Shown: one piece after another, positions 54,216 through 62,814 of the stretch
Layout: every line of letters starts with the position of its first letter
Position numbering within the stretch: the first letter of the stretch is position 1
DNA from: a bacterium
GTDB taxonomy: Bacteria; Bacteroidota; Ignavibacteria; SZUA-365
Length of the DNA stretch: 64,000 bases
Reading direction: 5' to 3'
Assembly: GCA_020444325.1 (NCBI GenBank)
Contig: JAHLLD010000001.1
Location: 516,747 to 580,746 of the forward strand
Notes under the pieces: model-generated
Database searches by the model: none
Told to the model about the DNA's origin: nothing
The model's input: the letters and a program-made list of their open reading frames with translations, nothing else
Translations under genes and position numbers: made by a program

Positions 54216-54352
54216 CTCTGCGTGCGCTTTACGGTATTATTTTCACGAGAATCAGTTCCGACAGAATTTTTTACGGGAAAGGGAACAAACGTTCCTCACC
54301 CGTGTCTTTTGCGTGATAGTGCTTCGATTTGCGTTGAACTGACAGGAACAAC

Positions 54353-54904
54353 GTGCTGAACGATGTGAGCCAGACCGATACGCAGGATCTCGTTCTGCAG
54401 CAGCGAATCCGGGAGGGAAACAATGCTGCATTCGCAGATCTGTACAACCGTCATAAACACGGTGTGTACCTGTTCTGCACGCGATTCCTCGGTGAGCGTC
54501 CCCTGGCGGAAGACATATTCCAGGAAGTGTTCGTCAACCTCCTGGAGAAAATCCGCGAAGGACTGGAAATCACCAATGTCCGCGCCTACCTGCTCCGTTC
54601 TGCGCGAAATCGATGCTACAACAGCATTCGCGATCGCAAGTACGCGAAAGACATCGATGACATGCATGACATGCTCGGCGGCGGCGCAGAAGCGGATCCG
54701 GACGATCACGAAGAACTGCATGCCGCGCTCCGGCAGCTGCCGGAAGACAACCGCGAAGCACTCCTGCTCTGCGAATTCGAAGGTTACAGTTACGAGGAAA
54801 TCGCAGAGTTGACGGAAGTACCGGTCACAACCGTACGCAAACGCATTTTCCGGGCACGCCGGAAATTGCGTGAACTGCTCTCTCCAGGCACGACACGGAT
54901 GTAA
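54353..54904 (+). CDS. ECF-type RNA polymerase sigma factor
   Basis: 183 residues from a GTG with AGGA six bases upstream. Region 2 is AFADLYNRHKHGVYLFCTRF and EDIFQEVFVNLLEKI (about 25-75), and NVRAYLLRSARNRCYNSIRD follows. Region 4 is LPEDNREALLLCEFEGYSYE and EIAELTEVPVTTVRKRIFRA (about 125-170). It is a minimal two-domain ECF factor without an extra C-terminal domain. The next gene begins 4 bp after its stop and encodes the likely anti-sigma factor, so the pair probably forms a regulated unit for the downstream surface-protein genes. Confidence 0.95.
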   Translation: MLNDVSQTDTQDLVLQQRIREGNNAAFADLYNRHKHGVYLFCTRFLGERPLAEDIFQEVFVNLLEKIREGLEITNVRAYLLRSARNRCYNSIRDRKYAKDIDDMHDMLGGGAEADPDDHEELHAALRQLPEDNREALLLCEFEGYSYEEIAELTEVPVTTVRKRIFRARRKLRELLSPGTTRM

Positions 54905-54908
54905 TGCA

Positions 54909-56264
54909 ATGATTTTCGAAGAACACATCTCGGCTTTTCTTGACGGCGCACTCTCCGCCGCAGAGGAAACGGAATTCCTCCACATTCTCTCGGTCTCTCC
55001 CGAGAAGCGCGAGCTGTTTCATGCACATCTCGGGGTGAAATCCGCCCTCGCCGCGGACGCGCGCAGCAGCGCCGTCCCTTCAAAACTCGATGCCGCGGTG
55101 TTCGCGGCAGCTGGTGGCGCGGCAGCTGGTGGCGCGGCAGCTGGTGGGGCTGCTGCCGGTGGCGCGGCAGCCGGTGGCGCGGCAGCTGGTGGGGCTGCTG
55201 CCGGTGGTCTTGCAGCCGGCGGCTCCACAGCGGTCTCCTCCGCAGCGGCTTCCTCCGCAGCGGTTTCCTCCGCGGGCGCATCCGTAGTTGCTGCTGCGGG
55301 CTGGTGGACGGGAATGCGCATCGTGAGCGCGGTACTGCTCGGTCTGTCCCTGTTCGGGGCGGGCTATTTCCTGCATGATCGGCTGTCTGGAAACGAGGAA
55401 ACGGCTTCCGAGACCGCAATTATGCAGAATATGCATAAGGAAAGCCCTGGAAATATGCAGAATGTGCATAATGACGCCGCGCAAAATATGCAGAATGTGC
55501 ATAATGGCGCTGACGCAGACTCGCGCATTGATGGTGGGGAGGGACGCGCAGCGCAGGGAAACGGCCAGCAGGGAAGTTCAGCTTCTGCGCAGCGCGTCGT
55601 CTACCGCAACGTGTACGTTACGCGTGTGGATACGGTATATCTGACTGACGCGGATCGTGACCGCAGTCCGCAGATTGTCGAACGCATCGACACCGTCTCC
55701 ATCGCGCTGATGCACAGCGCGCCGGAGCAGCGTCCCATACAGATCAACCAGGCCCCCCTGCGCTCTGCCGAGCTGCCGCTTCCGGGACATCTCGAACTGG
55801 AAGTGCAGCGCGAACATCTGACGACCTTCCCGTACATCGATTACAACCGCCTCGGTGTTGACCGCAATCAGCAGCGATTCGCAGCTTCCGCCGCATGGAT
55901 ATTCAATGAGCACCATGCCGCCGGTGTGACCGTAGGACAGAAGCCGTTCGCGATGGATTATTACAACCTCAACAGCGATACGCTTTATCTCTACCAGGAC
56001 CAGCCGGTTCTGCTCTACGGCGGCGCGTTCTACCGCTTCTCGCTTCCCGCCTTCACCGGTGTCACCCCCGAATTCACCATGATGCTCGGAGGAGCGGAAT
56101 TCGGTCCGGTCATCGGTGGACGTCTTGCCGTACAGCTGTCTCCCACCCAGCATTTCAGTATAATAGTAGGTGCAAACGGTACGCTTCTCGCATACCGCTT
56201 CAAGGATAAAGTGTTTACAAGCCAGAATCTCGGACTCTCATACGGAATTCGTTACCGCTTCTGA
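54909..56264 (+). CDS. Anti-sigma candidate with membrane helix and beta-barrel-like C-terminus
   Basis: 451 residues from the ATG at 54909. Residues 1-60 look like a short anti-sigma domain (HISAFLDGALSAAEETEFLH), here without the zinc-binding cysteines. Residues 66-105 are seven AAAGG and one LAAGG repeats, followed by an A/S-rich tract. One membrane helix spans about 136-155 (RIVSAVLLGLSLFGAGYF). A linker to about 290 contains three 11-residue MQN.HN repeats and is probably periplasmic. Residues 295-451 are beta-rich and end LGLSYGIRYRF, like an outer-membrane barrel. If real, one chain crosses both membranes. Function is inferred from the sigma-factor neighbour. Confidence 0.75.
   Translation: MIFEEHISAFLDGALSAAEETEFLHILSVSPEKRELFHAHLGVKSALAADARSSAVPSKLDAAVFAAAGGAAAGGAAAGGAAAGGAAAGGAAAGGAAAGGLAAGGSTAVSSAAASSAAVSSAGASVVAAAGWWTGMRIVSAVLLGLSLFGAGYFLHDRLSGNEETASETAIMQNMHKESPGNMQNVHNDAAQNMQNVHNGADADSRIDGGEGRAAQGNGQQGSSASAQRVVYRNVYVTRVDTVYLTDADRDRSPQIVERIDTVSIALMHSAPEQRPIQINQAPLRSAELPLPGHLELEVQREHLTTFPYIDYNRLGVDRNQQRFAASAAWIFNEHHAAGVTVGQKPFAMDYYNLNSDTLYLYQDQPVLLYGGAFYRFSLPAFTGVTPEFTMMLGGAEFGPVIGGRLAVQLSPTQHFSIIVGANGTLLAYRFKDKVFTSQNLGLSYGIRYRF
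55104..55223 (+). repeat. 15-bp minisatellite encoding (AAAGG)7-LAAGG
   Basis: Eight in-frame 15-bp units (GCGGCAGCTGGTGGC-type with third-position changes) lie at 55104-55223. A second degenerate 15-bp array encoding SSAAx follows at about 55226-55270. Copy-number change by slippage would keep the frame. Confidence 0.9.
55420..55503. repeat. Three phased TATGCA-N5-TGCATA palindromes
   Basis: Palindromes at 55420-55438, 55454-55470 and 55487-55503 have loops GAATA, GAATG and GAATG and repeat every 33 bp. They encode the MQN.HN repeats of the anti-sigma candidate. Confidence 0.75.
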
Positions 56265-56265
56265 C

Positions 56266-57027
56266 ATGATTGCTGTTATCCGGAGAGTATTCGGAATCTC
56301 ATCGGTGCGCACCGCACTGAAGGGATTCCCCCTCTACCTCCTCGTCCTGTGCGTGGTGGCGCTGGCATTCTCTTTCTCATTTACCGCCTGCTCTCCCCCG
56401 ACAGGTGTCGTGCCGGATACGCTCTCCACCAACAAGTGTCAAACCGACTGGGGTGATTCCGTCGCCGTGGTACGCAGCACCATACGCTTTGAAGCGCAGG
56501 TCGATACGTCGCTGTATCCTCTCGAGCGTTTTTCCGAAAGCGGTCTGCGCATTGCCGTGGTCTGTATTCCGCCGGATACGAGTTCGCTGCCGTATCTCGA
56601 CCTCTATTCCGTTTCGGCGAACTATCTCGACATTCCCGCGACAGGACTCCCTTTCACAACGAAAATCCCGGCGCGGTATTTCTCTCATTACGGCTGCACG
56701 CGCGTCGCGGTAAGTGTCATTCTCCTGTACAGCGATGTGAATGCGAACGGGCATTTCGAAGCCGGTGAGCCGGTGTACGGAGCCGGAGAACAGAGCCTGT
56801 ATGCTTACGCGGAAGGGACGGTCAGCAATGATGACATCCGCGGCACGCCGTATGAAAGTCTCCAACTGTTTTCGAACGTGCTCGTGCGTGTCGCCGTAAA
56901 TCCGGCACCCCGTTTTCGTCCTGCGCCCGACTATCGCGCAACGATTTTTCTGATCAACGTACGCGGTGATGCCGCGTCCTACGAACTCCCCTATCCGTGG
57001 GAGCCCGTACACCCGCTGCTTCCATAG
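56266..57027 (+). CDS. Lipoprotein next to the sigma/anti-sigma pair, function unknown
   Basis: 253 residues from the ATG at 56266, one base after the stop of the anti-sigma candidate; no separate ribosome site is seen, so translation may be coupled. A long signal segment (YLLVLCVVALAFSFSFTAC) ends in a lipobox-like TAC at Cys42. The mature part is beta-rich (SVAVVRSTIRFEAQVDTSLY, VAVSVILLYSDVNANGHFEA). DVNANGHFEAGEPVYGAGEQ resembles a calcium-binding loop. No family recognised. Its place suggests a role with the sensor protein or the following VWA protein. Confidence 0.8.
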   Translation: MIAVIRRVFGISSVRTALKGFPLYLLVLCVVALAFSFSFTACSPPTGVVPDTLSTNKCQTDWGDSVAVVRSTIRFEAQVDTSLYPLERFSESGLRIAVVCIPPDTSSLPYLDLYSVSANYLDIPATGLPFTTKIPARYFSHYGCTRVAVSVILLYSDVNANGHFEAGEPVYGAGEQSLYAYAEGTVSNDDIRGTPYESLQLFSNVLVRVAVNPAPRFRPAPDYRATIFLINVRGDAASYELPYPWEPVHPLLP

Positions 57028-57064
57028 CAGCTGCTTCCGTAGCAGGAAGCAAGGAGCTGAACTG

Positions 57065-58315
57065 ATGAAACGCAGAAATATCATATCGTCCCTGCTCTTC
57101 GGCATGCTGCTGTGCATGCTGCTGTTCCCCCAGCACGCCGTTGCGCAGCCCAGGCTCGACCTGCGCCTGCTGAAACCGAATACGCCGGACTACTATTACT
57201 ACCAGCTTTATTTCGCCGCGTACTGTGGTGACAGCGTGATTTATGATCTCGACAAAGGGCAGCTCATACTTGAGGAGGACATTGGACTGATCGATACCAG
57301 CAGGTACACCATCGACCGCCCGGCCTCACCCGACCGGAATTCCTGCTACGAACTCGCCATGGTCTTCGACAACAGTAATGCCATCAGTCCGGCAGATCTC
57401 ACCGAGATTGCATCAGCATCCGCCGGTATCATCGACTCGATGAACAGGGACTGTCAGCGCAGCGCGGTCCTCACCTTCGCTGACCATCCGACCTTGCTTT
57501 CCTTTCTCACCAGCGAGCGAGAGCAGGCGAAAGCAGCGCTGGATGGAATGACTCCCGGAGGCAGCCGCGCATTGTACGATGGGATTTACACCGGCGTCAG
57601 TGAGCTGCGGACGAACGGAATCATGAATGTACGCATCGTGCTCGTACTCACCACCGGCGGGGATCAGGGCAGTACCACCGATCAGCTCAAACTGCTCCAA
57701 CATGCGAGGGGACGCGACATTCGTATTTTCATCGTCGAACTCGGATCCACCCCCCACCGGGACGAACTGGAATTCATCGCCAGGGAAACCGGGGGTCTGT
57801 ACTATCACGTCACGTCGGTGGATGAACTCGGGCAGCTCTATGCGACATTTCCCGGTTTCTTCCGGCGCGAGTTTGACGAGCACCGTATCGTCAGGCGTAC
57901 GGCGAATACGGACATGAAAAATCTCCTCATCCGGCTGCGGCTCGAGGCCTGCCAGGACAGCGTCTGGGCCGAGCGGCTTTTCCATGACTATCGCGCCGAC
58001 ACCGTGATCAGCGCCATACCGCCCCTCACCCAACGGTCGTTCACTCTCGGACAGAGCTGGCCGAATCCCGTGTCCGCCTCCGGAGGAGCACTGCAGATTC
58101 GTTTCGAGGTGCTTGCATCGCAATCACGGACGCTCTCGCTGCTGCTGTATAACGGACTGGGGCAGCAGGTCGCCACACTCATGCCACCACAGCTGCGTTC
58201 ACCCGGCGCCCACACCATACAGTGGCGTCCCTCGGGACTCCCACCCGGTGTGTACTATTACCGCCTCACCGGCGGGAAAGACATTCTTACAGGAAAGATG
58301 ACGGTCATACCCTGA
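57065..58315 (+). CDS. VWA-domain protein with degenerate MIDAS and T9SS sorting domain
   Basis: 416 residues from the ATG at 57065, with AAGGAG upstream. Signal peptide near residues 5-27 (IISSLLFGMLLCMLLFPQHA). The von Willebrand A domain covers about 95-270: FDNSNAIS (Asp102-Ala106) replaces the DxSxS metal site, and LTTGGDQG replaces the usual LTDGxD. Metal-dependent binding is therefore doubtful. The T9SS sorting domain (SLGQSWPNPVSASGGALQI to LTGKMTVIP) is complete. It is probably surface-exposed. It lies 38 bp after the lipoprotein gene. Confidence 0.87.
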   Translation: MKRRNIISSLLFGMLLCMLLFPQHAVAQPRLDLRLLKPNTPDYYYYQLYFAAYCGDSVIYDLDKGQLILEEDIGLIDTSRYTIDRPASPDRNSCYELAMVFDNSNAISPADLTEIASASAGIIDSMNRDCQRSAVLTFADHPTLLSFLTSEREQAKAALDGMTPGGSRALYDGIYTGVSELRTNGIMNVRIVLVLTTGGDQGSTTDQLKLLQHARGRDIRIFIVELGSTPHRDELEFIARETGGLYYHVTSVDELGQLYATFPGFFRREFDEHRIVRRTANTDMKNLLIRLRLEACQDSVWAERLFHDYRADTVISAIPPLTQRSFTLGQSWPNPVSASGGALQIRFEVLASQSRTLSLLLYNGLGQQVATLMPPQLRSPGAHTIQWRPSGLPPGVYYYRLTGGKDILTGKMTVIP

Positions 58316-58392
58316 CCGAAGGGAATTTTTACGCCGGTCACGTGTCTCTCTCCTGCAACATCACTCAGAGATTCACCTGACCGGAGGGATCC

Positions 58393-60495
58393 ATGCATAC
58401 CTTGTCACGGCTGCTGCTGCTTGCCGTACTTCTCAGTCTGGGCGCAAGTACTGCCGATGCCGGCGTGCTCTGTGCCCGCAGAGCGGGAACCGAAGCACCT
58501 GTATACAATCTGCGTATCAGCCATATCCGCACGCATGTGCAGATTGTCGGACAGCTCGCCATCACCCATGTGGATGAAGAATTCTTCAACGACAACAACA
58601 TGGAGCTCGAGGGCTTCTATGCGTTCGCGCTCCCGGAAGGGGCGGAGATTGACGGTCTCTGGCTCTGGGTCGACGGCGTAAGGCGCACCTTCATCGTCAA
58701 GGAACTCGAGGAGGCGGAACGGCTCTACGACAGCGTCGTCGTCGGACAGCGTCGCGATCCAGCCCTGCTCGAAACCCTCGGAAAAAACCGTTTCCAGCTC
58801 AAAATCTTTCCCATCGCCCCGCACAGCTCGCGGCGTATCGAACTGCAATATTTCACCACGCTGCCCCTGACGCAGGGGGGACTTGTACACTACCGCTATC
58901 CGATGAATCTGCAGGGATATCAGAGCGAGCCGGTGGAAAGCACATCGCTGCATATCGAAGTGGCCTCGCAGCTGGATATTGGCGGGATCGTGACGAACTA
59001 CGATGACAATCCGCTTGTCTGTTCGGTGCAGCGGCAGGGCGACCGAAACTTCACGGTGAATTTCGGAGGGGAAAACCAGTTCTACAGTTCGGACTTCGAA
59101 CTGTCGTTTGAGCAGCAGAATCTGTATTCCTTCTTCCCGGCACTTTCGTACGTGGATCCTGACGAAACGCATCCGGCACCCTACTTCATGTGCTGGCACC
59201 CGATTGCGCCGGATGATGGGACGGAAGTGCAGCCCCGCGATCTGACCTTCGTGCTCGATGCCTCAGGAAGCATGACCACCGAACGCATCGCAACCGTGCG
59301 CGACGCGGTCATCGGTATCCTGCGGCAGCTGCGCTCCACAGACCATTTCCGCCTCGTTCTCTTCAGCGCCGCGACGTCCACTTTCCCGGCATCATCAGAA
59401 CTGCTGCCGGCGACGCAGGAAAATGTGCGCGACGCAGAAACCTATATCACGCAGCGCTACATGGCAGGGGGAAGCACCAACTACCAGGCAGCGTTCCAGG
59501 CTGCTCTGGATGCAAATTACCGCAGCAACGCCGCCCGTCGCATGCTTTTCCTCACCGATGGCGTGCCCACCGCAGGTGATACTTCATTTGACGGTCTTAT
59601 CAGCACCATCGAGGGCTATGACACCTATGGGGTGAGCATCTATCCGGTCATCGTGTACAGTGAAAGCATCGATCTGCTCTACGACATCGCGGCCGCGCGA
59701 GGCGGGAAGGTCACGATTGTCGAGAACGGCGACAATCTCCAGACCGTCATTTCACGCATCATGCTTGAATTGAATATCACCGCGGTGACGGATGCAACGG
59801 TGACGTACGAAAGCGGACAGACCTTCCTGGTCTATCCCGAAAGCTTCCCGCCGAATCCGGGCATCGACAGGCTGATCACAACGGGACGTCTCTCCGGTGA
59901 TCTTCCTGAACTCGTACGCCTCCGCTATACCGATGCGGCAAGGGAGGAGCAGGAAATTGTCCATGCCGTCGACTTCAAAGCTGTGCGCACCGACGTGCCT
60001 CAGATCGCCTCGTACTGGGCGTCGGCACACATCGCAAAGCTGATAAAAGAGTATGACGCCACGGGAAATCCGGAGCTGAAGCAAAGCATTATCAATCTCA
60101 GTATCAAGCATCAGATATTAACGCCGTTTACCGCGTTCCTTGTGCTCGAGAACAATCCCATCGATCCCCCGGTCTCAGCGGTCTCCGAGGCCGCGCCGCA
60201 GCCTGTTCGCGTTTCGCTCGGACAACAGTACCCGAGTCCCTTCTCTGTCAGCAAGCACGGACAGCTGCGCATTCCGTTCACGCTCACGCAGCAGAATCCG
60301 GTGCGAATTGTGATCACCGATCTGCTCGGACGCGTCGTACGGGTTCTCGTCGACAGCGACTTCAGTGCGGGACGCCACGATATTACCTGGGATGGACTGG
60401 ATGCATCCGGAAGGCGCGTGGCAGCGGGAACGTATCTCGTGCGCCTGACGTCGCATGAAACCGCACTTGCGCGCCGCATCACCGTGACAGACTGA
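58393..60495 (+). CDS. VIT/VWA-domain surface protein with FlgD-like sorting domain
   Basis: 700 residues. Signal peptide HTLSRLLLLAVLLSLGASTADA. A VIT (inter-alpha-trypsin) domain spans about 40-170 (FNDNNMELEGFYAFALPEGA, ELEEAERLYDSVVVGQRRDP). The VWA domain has an intact metal site: FVLDASGSM with Asp289, GGSTNYQAA and FLTDGVPTAGD. The C-terminus (QQYPSPFSVSKHGQLRIPFT then DGLDASGRRVAAGTYLVRLT) is a FlgD-Ig-like T9SS sorting domain. VIT-VWA proteins often mediate adhesion or bind matrix. It lies 77 bp after the other VWA gene and probably belongs to the same unit. Confidence 0.92.
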   Translation: MHTLSRLLLLAVLLSLGASTADAGVLCARRAGTEAPVYNLRISHIRTHVQIVGQLAITHVDEEFFNDNNMELEGFYAFALPEGAEIDGLWLWVDGVRRTFIVKELEEAERLYDSVVVGQRRDPALLETLGKNRFQLKIFPIAPHSSRRIELQYFTTLPLTQGGLVHYRYPMNLQGYQSEPVESTSLHIEVASQLDIGGIVTNYDDNPLVCSVQRQGDRNFTVNFGGENQFYSSDFELSFEQQNLYSFFPALSYVDPDETHPAPYFMCWHPIAPDDGTEVQPRDLTFVLDASGSMTTERIATVRDAVIGILRQLRSTDHFRLVLFSAATSTFPASSELLPATQENVRDAETYITQRYMAGGSTNYQAAFQAALDANYRSNAARRMLFLTDGVPTAGDTSFDGLISTIEGYDTYGVSIYPVIVYSESIDLLYDIAAARGGKVTIVENGDNLQTVISRIMLELNITAVTDATVTYESGQTFLVYPESFPPNPGIDRLITTGRLSGDLPELVRLRYTDAAREEQEIVHAVDFKAVRTDVPQIASYWASAHIAKLIKEYDATGNPELKQSIINLSIKHQILTPFTAFLVLENNPIDPPVSAVSEAAPQPVRVSLGQQYPSPFSVSKHGQLRIPFTLTQQNPVRIVITDLLGRVVRVLVDSDFSAGRHDITWDGLDASGRRVAAGTYLVRLTSHETALARRITVTD

Positions 60496-60879: not shown

Positions 60880-62814
60880 ATGAAACATCGTTTCCTTGTT
60901 TCCGTCATGCTGCTGCTCGGCATGACGGCTCTGCTTACATACCCCGCACGCAGTCAGCAGCCGTCGCCCCCGGTGCAGCGGGCATTCCACTATCAGGGCT
61001 GCCTGACGGATGCCAGCGGCAATAAGATCAACGGTACGCGCGACGTCATGTTCGAACTGCTGGACACCGATACATCCCCGATGACGGTTCTGTTTTCCGA
61101 GACGGCAATGGGACTGCAGGTCAATGATGGCATTTTTGAACACGCCATCGGTACAGTCGACACCACAGGAAATCCGCTGCCTCCGCTGATATTTCAGAAA
61201 CGCGTTGCCCTGCGGCTGACGGTAGACGGCGAGACCCTCGATCCCATCATTCCGATTTTCCCCTCACCGGTGGCCCTGGTCGCGCTGTATGCGGACTCGC
61301 TCAAGCAGCCCCTGCCTCCCGGACCCCAGGGTCCCGCCGGACCGGCTGGTCCCGCCGGCACGAACGGGAAAGACGGACTCAACTGCTGGGACGCCAACGG
61401 GAATGGCATCATGGATCCTGCCGAAGACACGAATGGTGACGGCTCATGGGATGCCGCAGACTGCAAGGGTCCCGCAGGCGCACCGGGTGCGAATGGTAAG
61501 GATGGGAAAGACGGAAAAGACGGCATCAATTGCTGGGACACCAACGGGAACGGGATGAAGGATGCCGCGGAAGACACCAACGGTGACGGCGTTGTGGATG
61601 TCAATGATTGCAAGGGACCGAAAGGAGATCCCGGTACGGGCGCCAGTGATACGCTAATCATCGATTATCTCGAAGTCACCGGTACGTCGCTTCATGAAGG
61701 AAATGAGCATTTCAAACGCGGCATCACCGTTGGCGGTGCCGACAGTGCGCGCAGCGCTCTGCGCATCGATTCCACCGGAGAAATCTATGCGCGCAGCCTG
61801 CATATCATTGACCCGGACGTGACGGGACTCTATGACATGAACAAGGTCGTGGAATTCGATTCTTCCGGATCAGTGCATCGCATGCCTGAGCGGTACATCA
61901 CCTTCAATCCCAGCGATCCCACGAAGTCTGACACCACAACGGTGACAGGAAAGGAAATCAAGACTCCGGCAATCGAAGTGTTCCATCCGGTCACGGGACT
62001 CCCCCTGTTTCGCTTCGACAGTTCGGGATCGTATCACTATCAGCGTGAGTTCTATCTTACACCCAACAAACAGAATCCCACGAAAAACGACACTACACTC
62101 ATCAAGGGTGATGGCGTCACGACCCCCTATTTCGAGGTCTACACGCCGGGGAATCCCGAACGGCAGGCATGGATCGACTCGGATGGTGAAGGATACTTCA
62201 ACAGTCTCCATGTCCTCGATTCCCTCGGGAATCCCATTCTCAATATCAATCACGACGGATTCATCGAATTCATCACCCCGCCGATATTCTACTCGGGATT
62301 GAGCATGTATCTCGAGAACGGAAACTTTCTCGACATCAATCCCCTCGAAGGCTTCACGATCAAAGATCCCACCAACCTATCGAATCCCTGGGTCGCACAT
62401 ATCGATCCAAACGGAAATTCGCTGTTCACCGGCGCGAAGAATGCCATCGTGACGACAAAGTCGTATGGCGTGCGCAAGATGTACGCGGAAGAGGCGACCG
62501 AGGTATGGTTCAATGACCGCGGCTTCGGGAAGCTCAAAAACGGCGAGATTCGCGTCGAACTCGATCCGGTCTTTCTTGAGACAGCATACATCGATGATGA
62601 CCATCCCATTCATGTCCGCCTCACGCCAACCGCGGAATGCAACGGACTGTATGTGGCCGAGAAGGGTGACGACTACTTCATCGTGCGAGAGCTGATGAAA
62701 GGTTCATCGAATGCCACCTTCGACTGGGAAGTGAATGCCAAGCGGCGCAATTATGAAAACGAACGTCTCGAGAGTTACGACACGGGAGCTACGCTCCCAG
62801 GGGAGGTACGGTAA
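60880..62814 (+). CDS. Secreted collagen-like protein with Cys-bracketed calcium loops
   Basis: 644 residues with a GGAGGAA site. Signal peptide KHRFLVSVMLLLGMTALLT. An N-terminal beta domain (AFHYQGCLTDASGNKINGTR) is followed by Gly-X-Y stretches at about 148-167 and 197-216. Between and after these lie two near-identical modules bounded by cysteines (NCWD, then DTNGDG near the end), residues about 168-195 and 217-244, with DxNxNGxxD loops like EF-hands. The C-terminus (YGVRKMYAEEATEVWFNDRG, AECNGLYVAEKGDDYFIVRE) is a domain I have seen in fibre-like proteins of several phyla. No T9SS domain. It overlaps the next gene by one base. Confidence 0.85.
   Translation: MKHRFLVSVMLLLGMTALLTYPARSQQPSPPVQRAFHYQGCLTDASGNKINGTRDVMFELLDTDTSPMTVLFSETAMGLQVNDGIFEHAIGTVDTTGNPLPPLIFQKRVALRLTVDGETLDPIIPIFPSPVALVALYADSLKQPLPPGPQGPAGPAGPAGTNGKDGLNCWDANGNGIMDPAEDTNGDGSWDAADCKGPAGAPGANGKDGKDGKDGINCWDTNGNGMKDAAEDTNGDGVVDVNDCKGPKGDPGTGASDTLIIDYLEVTGTSLHEGNEHFKRGITVGGADSARSALRIDSTGEIYARSLHIIDPDVTGLYDMNKVVEFDSSGSVHRMPERYITFNPSDPTKSDTTTVTGKEIKTPAIEVFHPVTGLPLFRFDSSGSYHYQREFYLTPNKQNPTKNDTTLIKGDGVTTPYFEVYTPGNPERQAWIDSDGEGYFNSLHVLDSLGNPILNINHDGFIEFITPPIFYSGLSMYLENGNFLDINPLEGFTIKDPTNLSNPWVAHIDPNGNSLFTGAKNAIVTTKSYGVRKMYAEEATEVWFNDRGFGKLKNGEIRVELDPVFLETAYIDDDHPIHVRLTPTAECNGLYVAEKGDDYFIVRELMKGSSNATFDWEVNAKRRNYENERLESYDTGATLPGEVR

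Follow-up and report, generated by a model that had tools for sequence, protein, structure and literature searches.

A predicted envelope-spanning anti-sigma factor encoded behind an ECF sigma gene in Ignavibacteria

Gene order and its conservation

The window, a stretch of 64,000 nucleotides from an uncultured bacterium of the class Ignavibacteria, carries five consecutive genes on one strand, for an ECF sigma factor, an anti-sigma factor predicted to span the cell envelope, a lipoprotein, a VWA protein and a VIT-VWA protein (Table 1). The sigma product matches the Pfam families Sigma70_r2 (4e-12) and Sigma70_r4_2 (1e-21), and its matches to specific NCBIfam ECF subfamilies score under their cut-offs. 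Its start codon is GTG in all aligned orthologues, and the AGGA upstream is kept too. The ORFs bear out the arrangement given by the initial annotation, in which the sigma gene lies 4 bp before a 451-residue frame: 4 nt separate the sigma stop from the next ATG.

Table 1. Positions in the window of genes, protein segments and predicted DNA elements
Feature	Position	Strand	Details
Predicted autoregulatory ECF promoter, GGGAAC-N15-GTGTC	54281..54306	+	Before sigma gene; G000:C1:571027-571052
ECF sigma factor	54353..54904	+	183 aa, GTG start; Pfam Sigma70_r2 / r4_2
Envelope-spanning anti-sigma factor (predicted)	54909..56264	+	451 aa, complete gene with stop
Anti-sigma domain, residues 1-67	54909..55109	+	Four helices, no cysteines; AF2 models, Foldseek PDB
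Gly/Ala-rich disordered cytoplasmic linker, residues 69-133	55113..55307	+	pLDDT <50; partly 15-nt tandem repeat
Single inner-membrane helix, residues 138-156	55320..55376	+	Hydropathy; helix in AF2 model
Disordered periplasmic tether, residues 157-293 (137 residues)	55377..55787	+	pLDDT <50 over most of 160-290
Palindromic repeat x3 in tether, 33-nt spacing	55418..55504	+	Read in frame as MQN(V/M)H(N/K); species-specific
Eight-stranded OmpA-like outer-membrane barrel (predicted), residues 294-451	55788..56261	+	AF2 strands; VIA; Foldseek
Lipoprotein, third gene of unit	56266..57027	+	253 aa; lipobox FTAC at residues 39-42; no Pfam match
Exported VWA protein	57062..58315	+	VWA 9.6e-14; Por_Secre_tail 22.5 bits, below cut-off 23; kept in orthologous operons
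Second predicted promoter, GGGAAT-N15-GTGTC	58321..58346	+	Directly before VIT-VWA gene
Exported VIT-VWA protein, FlgD/type IX-like tail	58393..60495	+	VIT 2.9e-18, VWA 6.4e-16, FlgD_ig 2.7e-10; Por_Secre_tail 21.8 bits, cut-off 23

Orthologues with 48-66% identity over the full alignment occur in 10 of the 12 sampled genomes of the bacterial family, the window's own included, and the order sigma, anti-sigma, lipoprotein, VWA, VIT is kept in orthologous operons. Distant homologues, ~20% identical, have the same layout across the class. Because both sets keep the whole layout, it is more than a chance arrangement. All 26 homologous loci that include upstream DNA have an ECF sigma gene immediately before the anti-sigma gene, and every intact homologue examined carries the whole architecture in one reading frame. 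The search for this architecture beside ECF genes in Ignavibacteria, which the initial annotation had proposed, thus finds it throughout the class, and in some families there are several to about a dozen anti-sigma matches per genome. The envelope-spanning anti-sigma design is therefore widespread and multi-copy in Ignavibacteria; this is new here, and we found no description of such systems in this class in open papers. Three class genomes (G020, G136 and G140) have 10-12 hits apiece with the barrel anti-sigma profile, a count in which some genes appear as two pieces; for a single kind of regulator this expansion is unusual.

Outside the class, matches in a phylum-wide sample cover just the N-terminal anti-sigma end. 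A rough contrast is provided by the PG0214-like sigma family (NF058625), whose members lie mostly beside short anti-sigma proteins without a barrel; among NF058625 loci, a barrel-like end occurs just in two loci of the present anti-sigma family.

At almost every locus examined, the gene directly after the anti-sigma gene encodes a lipoprotein; that of the window is 42-70% identical to its orthologues. A strict lipobox scan caught most loci, and most of the others have a near match by eye (for example LWSC, YSAC or VEGC), with one clear exception (L050). In the window's own genome, a lipoprotein is the third gene in all five systems, including that on contig C2, whose anti-sigma paralogue is shown to match the family just at its N-terminal end. 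The conserved unit is sigma factor, barrel anti-sigma factor and lipoprotein. The lipoproteins of these paralogous systems do not form one family: the window's has no Pfam match, that of C5 has a VWA domain, those of C12 and C2 are weakly PQQ/propeller-like, and that of C8 is a serpin. This diversity suggests that the lipoprotein may be an exchangeable sensor or partner. The serpin of C8 (L104:4890-6116) is complete (Pfam E 3e-114) and carries a lipobox, which predicts a lipoprotein that inhibits proteases, encoded next to an envelope-spanning sigma switch.

Predicted architecture of the anti-sigma protein

An AlphaFold2 (AF2) model of the 451-residue protein was built with 25 aligned homologues. 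Its first 67 residues form four helices (pLDDT about 62-95) and are followed by a disordered linker. When this N-terminal domain was folded alone and compared with the PDB by Foldseek, the top nine matches were all anti-sigma chains (RslA, MucA, RsiW and ChrR), with E values of 0.4-2.4 that are each insignificant. The unanimity of the nine best matches is telling, and with the four-helix model it supports a predicted role as an anti-sigma domain, in agreement with the anti-sigma-like N-terminus described earlier. Searching PDB sequences with a profile of the aligned orthologues gave nothing relevant. In Pfam, the window protein has a weak zf-HC2 match at residues 3-23 and no family over its C-terminal half; weak matches to zf-HC2 and to RseA_N are each found in 10 of 25 family members. 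The window protein and 22 of the 24 proteins listed lack cysteine in their first 70 residues. We could therefore rule out a zinc-binding anti-sigma domain (ZAS), with its His-x3-Cys-x2-Cys site.

The single membrane helix had been placed at about residues 136-155, close to the hydropathy peak at 138-156 and to the model helix at 130-149/151-159. Beyond it, the linker first estimated at 135 residues measures 137 and is disordered, and the corresponding tether ranges from 98 to 214 residues in homologues.

Two kinds of repeat lie within this gene. A 15-nt GC-rich tandem repeat at window positions 55073-55237 encodes a Gly/Ala-rich stretch that joins the anti-sigma domain to the membrane helix and differs in length among orthologues. 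The tether holds a palindromic repeat (Table 1), and the imperfect palindrome AAATATGCAGAAAGTGCATAA (17-21 nt) has 63 copies in this genome, often 33 nt apart, with none in four genomes of the same genus and at most one in each of 26 other relatives searched. Ten of 30 checked copies lie in frame inside a long ORF, reading MQ(K/N)(V/M)H(N/K), and others are intergenic or antisense; examples outside the window are at G000:C2:370229-370278, C10:91125-91174 and C16:84188-84237. It looks as if a very short element had recently spread in this species alone.

The C-terminal domain had been described as a beta-rich stretch of about 155 residues ending in SYGIRYRF. That ending is confirmed, with IRYRF as an aromatic beta-signal, and the domain comprises residues 294-451. 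AF2 predicts eight strands (294-305, 323-331, 336-346, 367-378, 385-396, 399-410, 416-431 and 434-450), mostly with pLDDT of 83-97, and an extra short hairpin at 349-364. With residues 289-451 as query, VIA-align gives a designed membrane barrel (Z 17.4), OprF (17.3), OmpA (16.6) and NspA (15.8), and Foldseek gives OmpA with E 3e-6; nearly all top structural matches (Z 14-17) are outer-membrane or designed membrane barrels. The proposed structural check for a closed eight-stranded barrel thus yields a transmembrane-type barrel model, and these fold searches lead us to reject the soluble sandwich considered as its alternative. In Pfam, where the C-terminal half of the window protein has no match, OMP_b-brl matched in one of 25 relatives. 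Homologues that lack the barrel-like end would have spoken against the proposal, but the end is kept, most homologues finishing in an aromatic residue. The central claim of the initial annotation, that an anti-sigma factor and an outer-membrane barrel are joined in one polypeptide that would link the outer membrane to the sigma factor, holds in silico, on the AF2 model, the fold matches and the sigma pairing at 26 of 26 loci.

Promoters and candidate targets

Alignment of the DNA upstream of orthologous sigma genes reveals one conserved block, GGGAAY-N15-GTGTC, in strict or near-strict form. The layout GGAAY-N17-GTC is that of an ECF-type promoter, and this form is kept before the VIT-VWA gene in all six aligned orthologues. 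At window positions 54302-54325, a (T/C)GA(C/T)A element follows GTGTC by 8-9 nt in most orthologues, one of which has the partly palindromic GTGTC-N8-GACAC; it is possibly an operator or a start-region signal.

The GGGAAY-N15-GTGTC motif has 14 copies in the genome. Ten are outside long ORFs and just before genes, namely the sigma gene and genes for nine exported-looking proteins, eight of which have a type IX-secretion-like tail, the ninth having none. In a strict automatic test, an exported protein with a type IX-like tail follows 7 of the 14 N15 sites, versus 0 of 52 sites with other spacing, which are all sites in the genome whose spacer is 10-14 or 16-20 long (Fisher p = 4e-6). This test missed one Tat-like protein, at the signal test, and one duplicated N16 gene pair, at the tail pattern; neither changes the result. 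For a TIGR04183-type tail, five of eight target proteins score above 23 bits, two score 20-21 bits and one has no match. Domains among the targets include VWA (in two), VIT, FG-GAP and a lectin-like domain of the GH43_C2 type. As the genome encodes at least 150 type IX tails, the N15 targets are a small subset.

In a sister species (G001), five of the ten N15 sites are orthologous to sites in this genome. They precede genes for the sigma factor, the VIT-VWA protein, a second VIT protein, a 1413-aa VWA protein and a 328-aa protein, and their flanks conserve just the motif. A sister-species locus (L219) was dropped as an orthologue of the FG-GAP target, being 27% identical over part of its length.

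The initial annotation had grouped the lipoprotein with the two VWA proteins as likely partners or targets. The VWA proteins do look like sigma targets, whereas the lipoprotein is instead the conserved third gene of the unit. From autoregulation and co-location, we infer that this sigma factor reads all N15 sites, although other ECF sigma factors of the genome could share the motif. Two sites with a spacer one base longer, GGGAAY-N16-GTGTC (L178 and L179; G000:C5:158808-158834 and 164413-164439), each precede a gene for a 576-aa exported protein. The two proteins are apparently identical or near-identical, and their genes are possible further targets. Farther downstream in the window (60880-62814), a gene encodes an exported protein that combines collagen-like stretches (GPxGPxG) with repeats of a calcium-binding-like motif (DxNGNGxxDxAEDTNGDG).

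Known systems and possible mechanism

The initial annotation contrasted its one-chain protein with TonB-type surface signalling, in which anti-sigma factor and outer-membrane sensor are separate. The single chain stands, but not as a first: two papers report anti-sigma factors with an outer-membrane barrel in one chain from Phocaeicola and Bacteroides (PMC9308784) and, under the name Dma, from B. thetaiotaomicron (PMC13088901), so the window protein is not the first of its kind. Dma as described shares with it an anti-sigma domain, a membrane helix, a long disordered tether, a barrel and an adjacent ECF sigma gene, and in every architectural feature tested the window system agrees with Dma, which makes it a Dma-like member by architecture. 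According to PMC13088901, dma2 is a three-gene operon that is strongly induced on loss of the anti-sigma factor, and Dma proteins are confined to Bacteroidota. NCBI places the class Ignavibacteria in Ignavibacteriota. Host and predicted output differ: the Bacteroides Dma targets are vesiculation (nigD1) and polysaccharide-utilisation genes, whereas in the Ignavibacteria host the third gene encodes a lipoprotein and the surface proteins predicted to be controlled are of the VWA/VIT and type IX-tailed kinds. In Phocaeicola vulgatus (M0N98_03760-61) and B. fragilis (the EcfO pair), the anti-sigma factor is likewise encoded behind an ECF sigma gene and predicted to span the periplasm and end in an outer-membrane barrel; attack on the outer membrane strongly induces the sigma gene of the M0N98_03760-61 pair, and the regulon described in the accessible part of PMC9308784 has a NigD-like lipoprotein and an LPS glycosyltransferase but no VWA or type IX-tailed targets.

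Two other systems are similar in part. FecA-FecR-FecI also relays an outer-membrane signal to an ECF sigma factor, but its receptor and anti-sigma factor are separate, whereas here there is one chain and no receptor gene in the operon. None of the five operon proteins matches a FecR or receptor profile in Pfam, which rules out classical TonB signalling. In PorXY-SigP of Porphyromonas gingivalis, an ECF sigma factor likewise controls type IX-secretion genes; there, a two-component system governs the secretion apparatus, whereas here cargo-like genes are predicted to be under an envelope-spanning anti-sigma factor (PMC4800418).

Sequence and structure prediction support the architecture, the sigma pairing, the conserved triad, and the promoter with its predicted targets. 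We consider it likely that the system is a Dma-type sigma switch anchored in the outer membrane, in which an outer-membrane event frees the sigma factor to raise its own operon and exported proteins. The N-terminal helical domain would hold the sigma factor at the inner membrane, which one helix would cross; the ~137-residue disordered tether would traverse the periplasm, and the OmpA-like barrel would fix the far end of the chain in the outer membrane, probably close to the product of the adjoining lipoprotein gene. Release of the sigma factor would be set off at the barrel, alone or together with its lipoprotein, whether by a ligand, by damage or by a barrel that fails to assemble. Judging from other anti-sigma factors, the likeliest route would be regulated proteolysis of the anti-sigma protein. 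The free sigma factor would then use GGGAAY-N15-GTGTC promoters to express its own operon and exported proteins with VWA, VIT and type IX-like tails, and surface proteins would be renewed.

Perhaps the barrel is instead a gauge of its own assembly, a tentative alternative in which overloaded or damaged barrel-assembly machinery leaves the barrel, with its aromatic C-terminal signal, unassembled in the periplasm, and proteolysis of the anti-sigma factor then reports outer-membrane assembly stress. The beta-signal is an ordinary one, and according to PMC9308784 the equivalent Phocaeicola pair is thought to answer envelope stress, many co-induced genes being induced also by a BamA inhibitor. However, the conserved, fold-diverse lipoproteins suggest system-specific inputs that a general gauge would not need. 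Constitutive cleavage, which would leave anti-sigma factor and barrel as separate proteins that reconnect across the periplasm in the manner of classical cell-surface signalling, seems improbable: it would suit the length, disorder and low conservation of the tether and the common processing of anti-sigma factors, but every intact homologue examined keeps a single reading frame and the tether shows no obvious conserved cleavage motif. We give very little credence to a soluble periplasmic beta domain on an ordinary single-membrane anti-sigma factor, which would fit the missing Pfam outer-membrane family, uneven strand amphipathy and the few soluble barrels that score lower in the same structure search, but not the nearly uniform membrane-barrel matches or the aromatic C-termini.

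Under the outer-membrane-anchored switch that we prefer, one speculative extension is a modular class of envelope-spanning switches, in which a constant barrel anti-sigma factor might be paired with an interchangeable outer-membrane lipoprotein (of unknown domain, VWA, serpin or propeller-like) as the real sensor. A bacterium might then run several parallel circuits from outer membrane to genes, including one for type IX cargo at the surface.

As far as we found in open papers, the lipoprotein triad and a surface-cargo regulon are undescribed, and the new content is the spread within the class, the third gene, and the promoter with its predicted targets. The system carries the envelope-spanning anti-sigma design beyond Bacteroides-type bacteria into Ignavibacteria, where it is common and multi-copy. 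The conserved lipoprotein gene is a natural candidate for sensor or partner, and a short conserved promoter with a list of predicted targets, which the known cases lack in so simple a form, makes signal, release and output directly testable.
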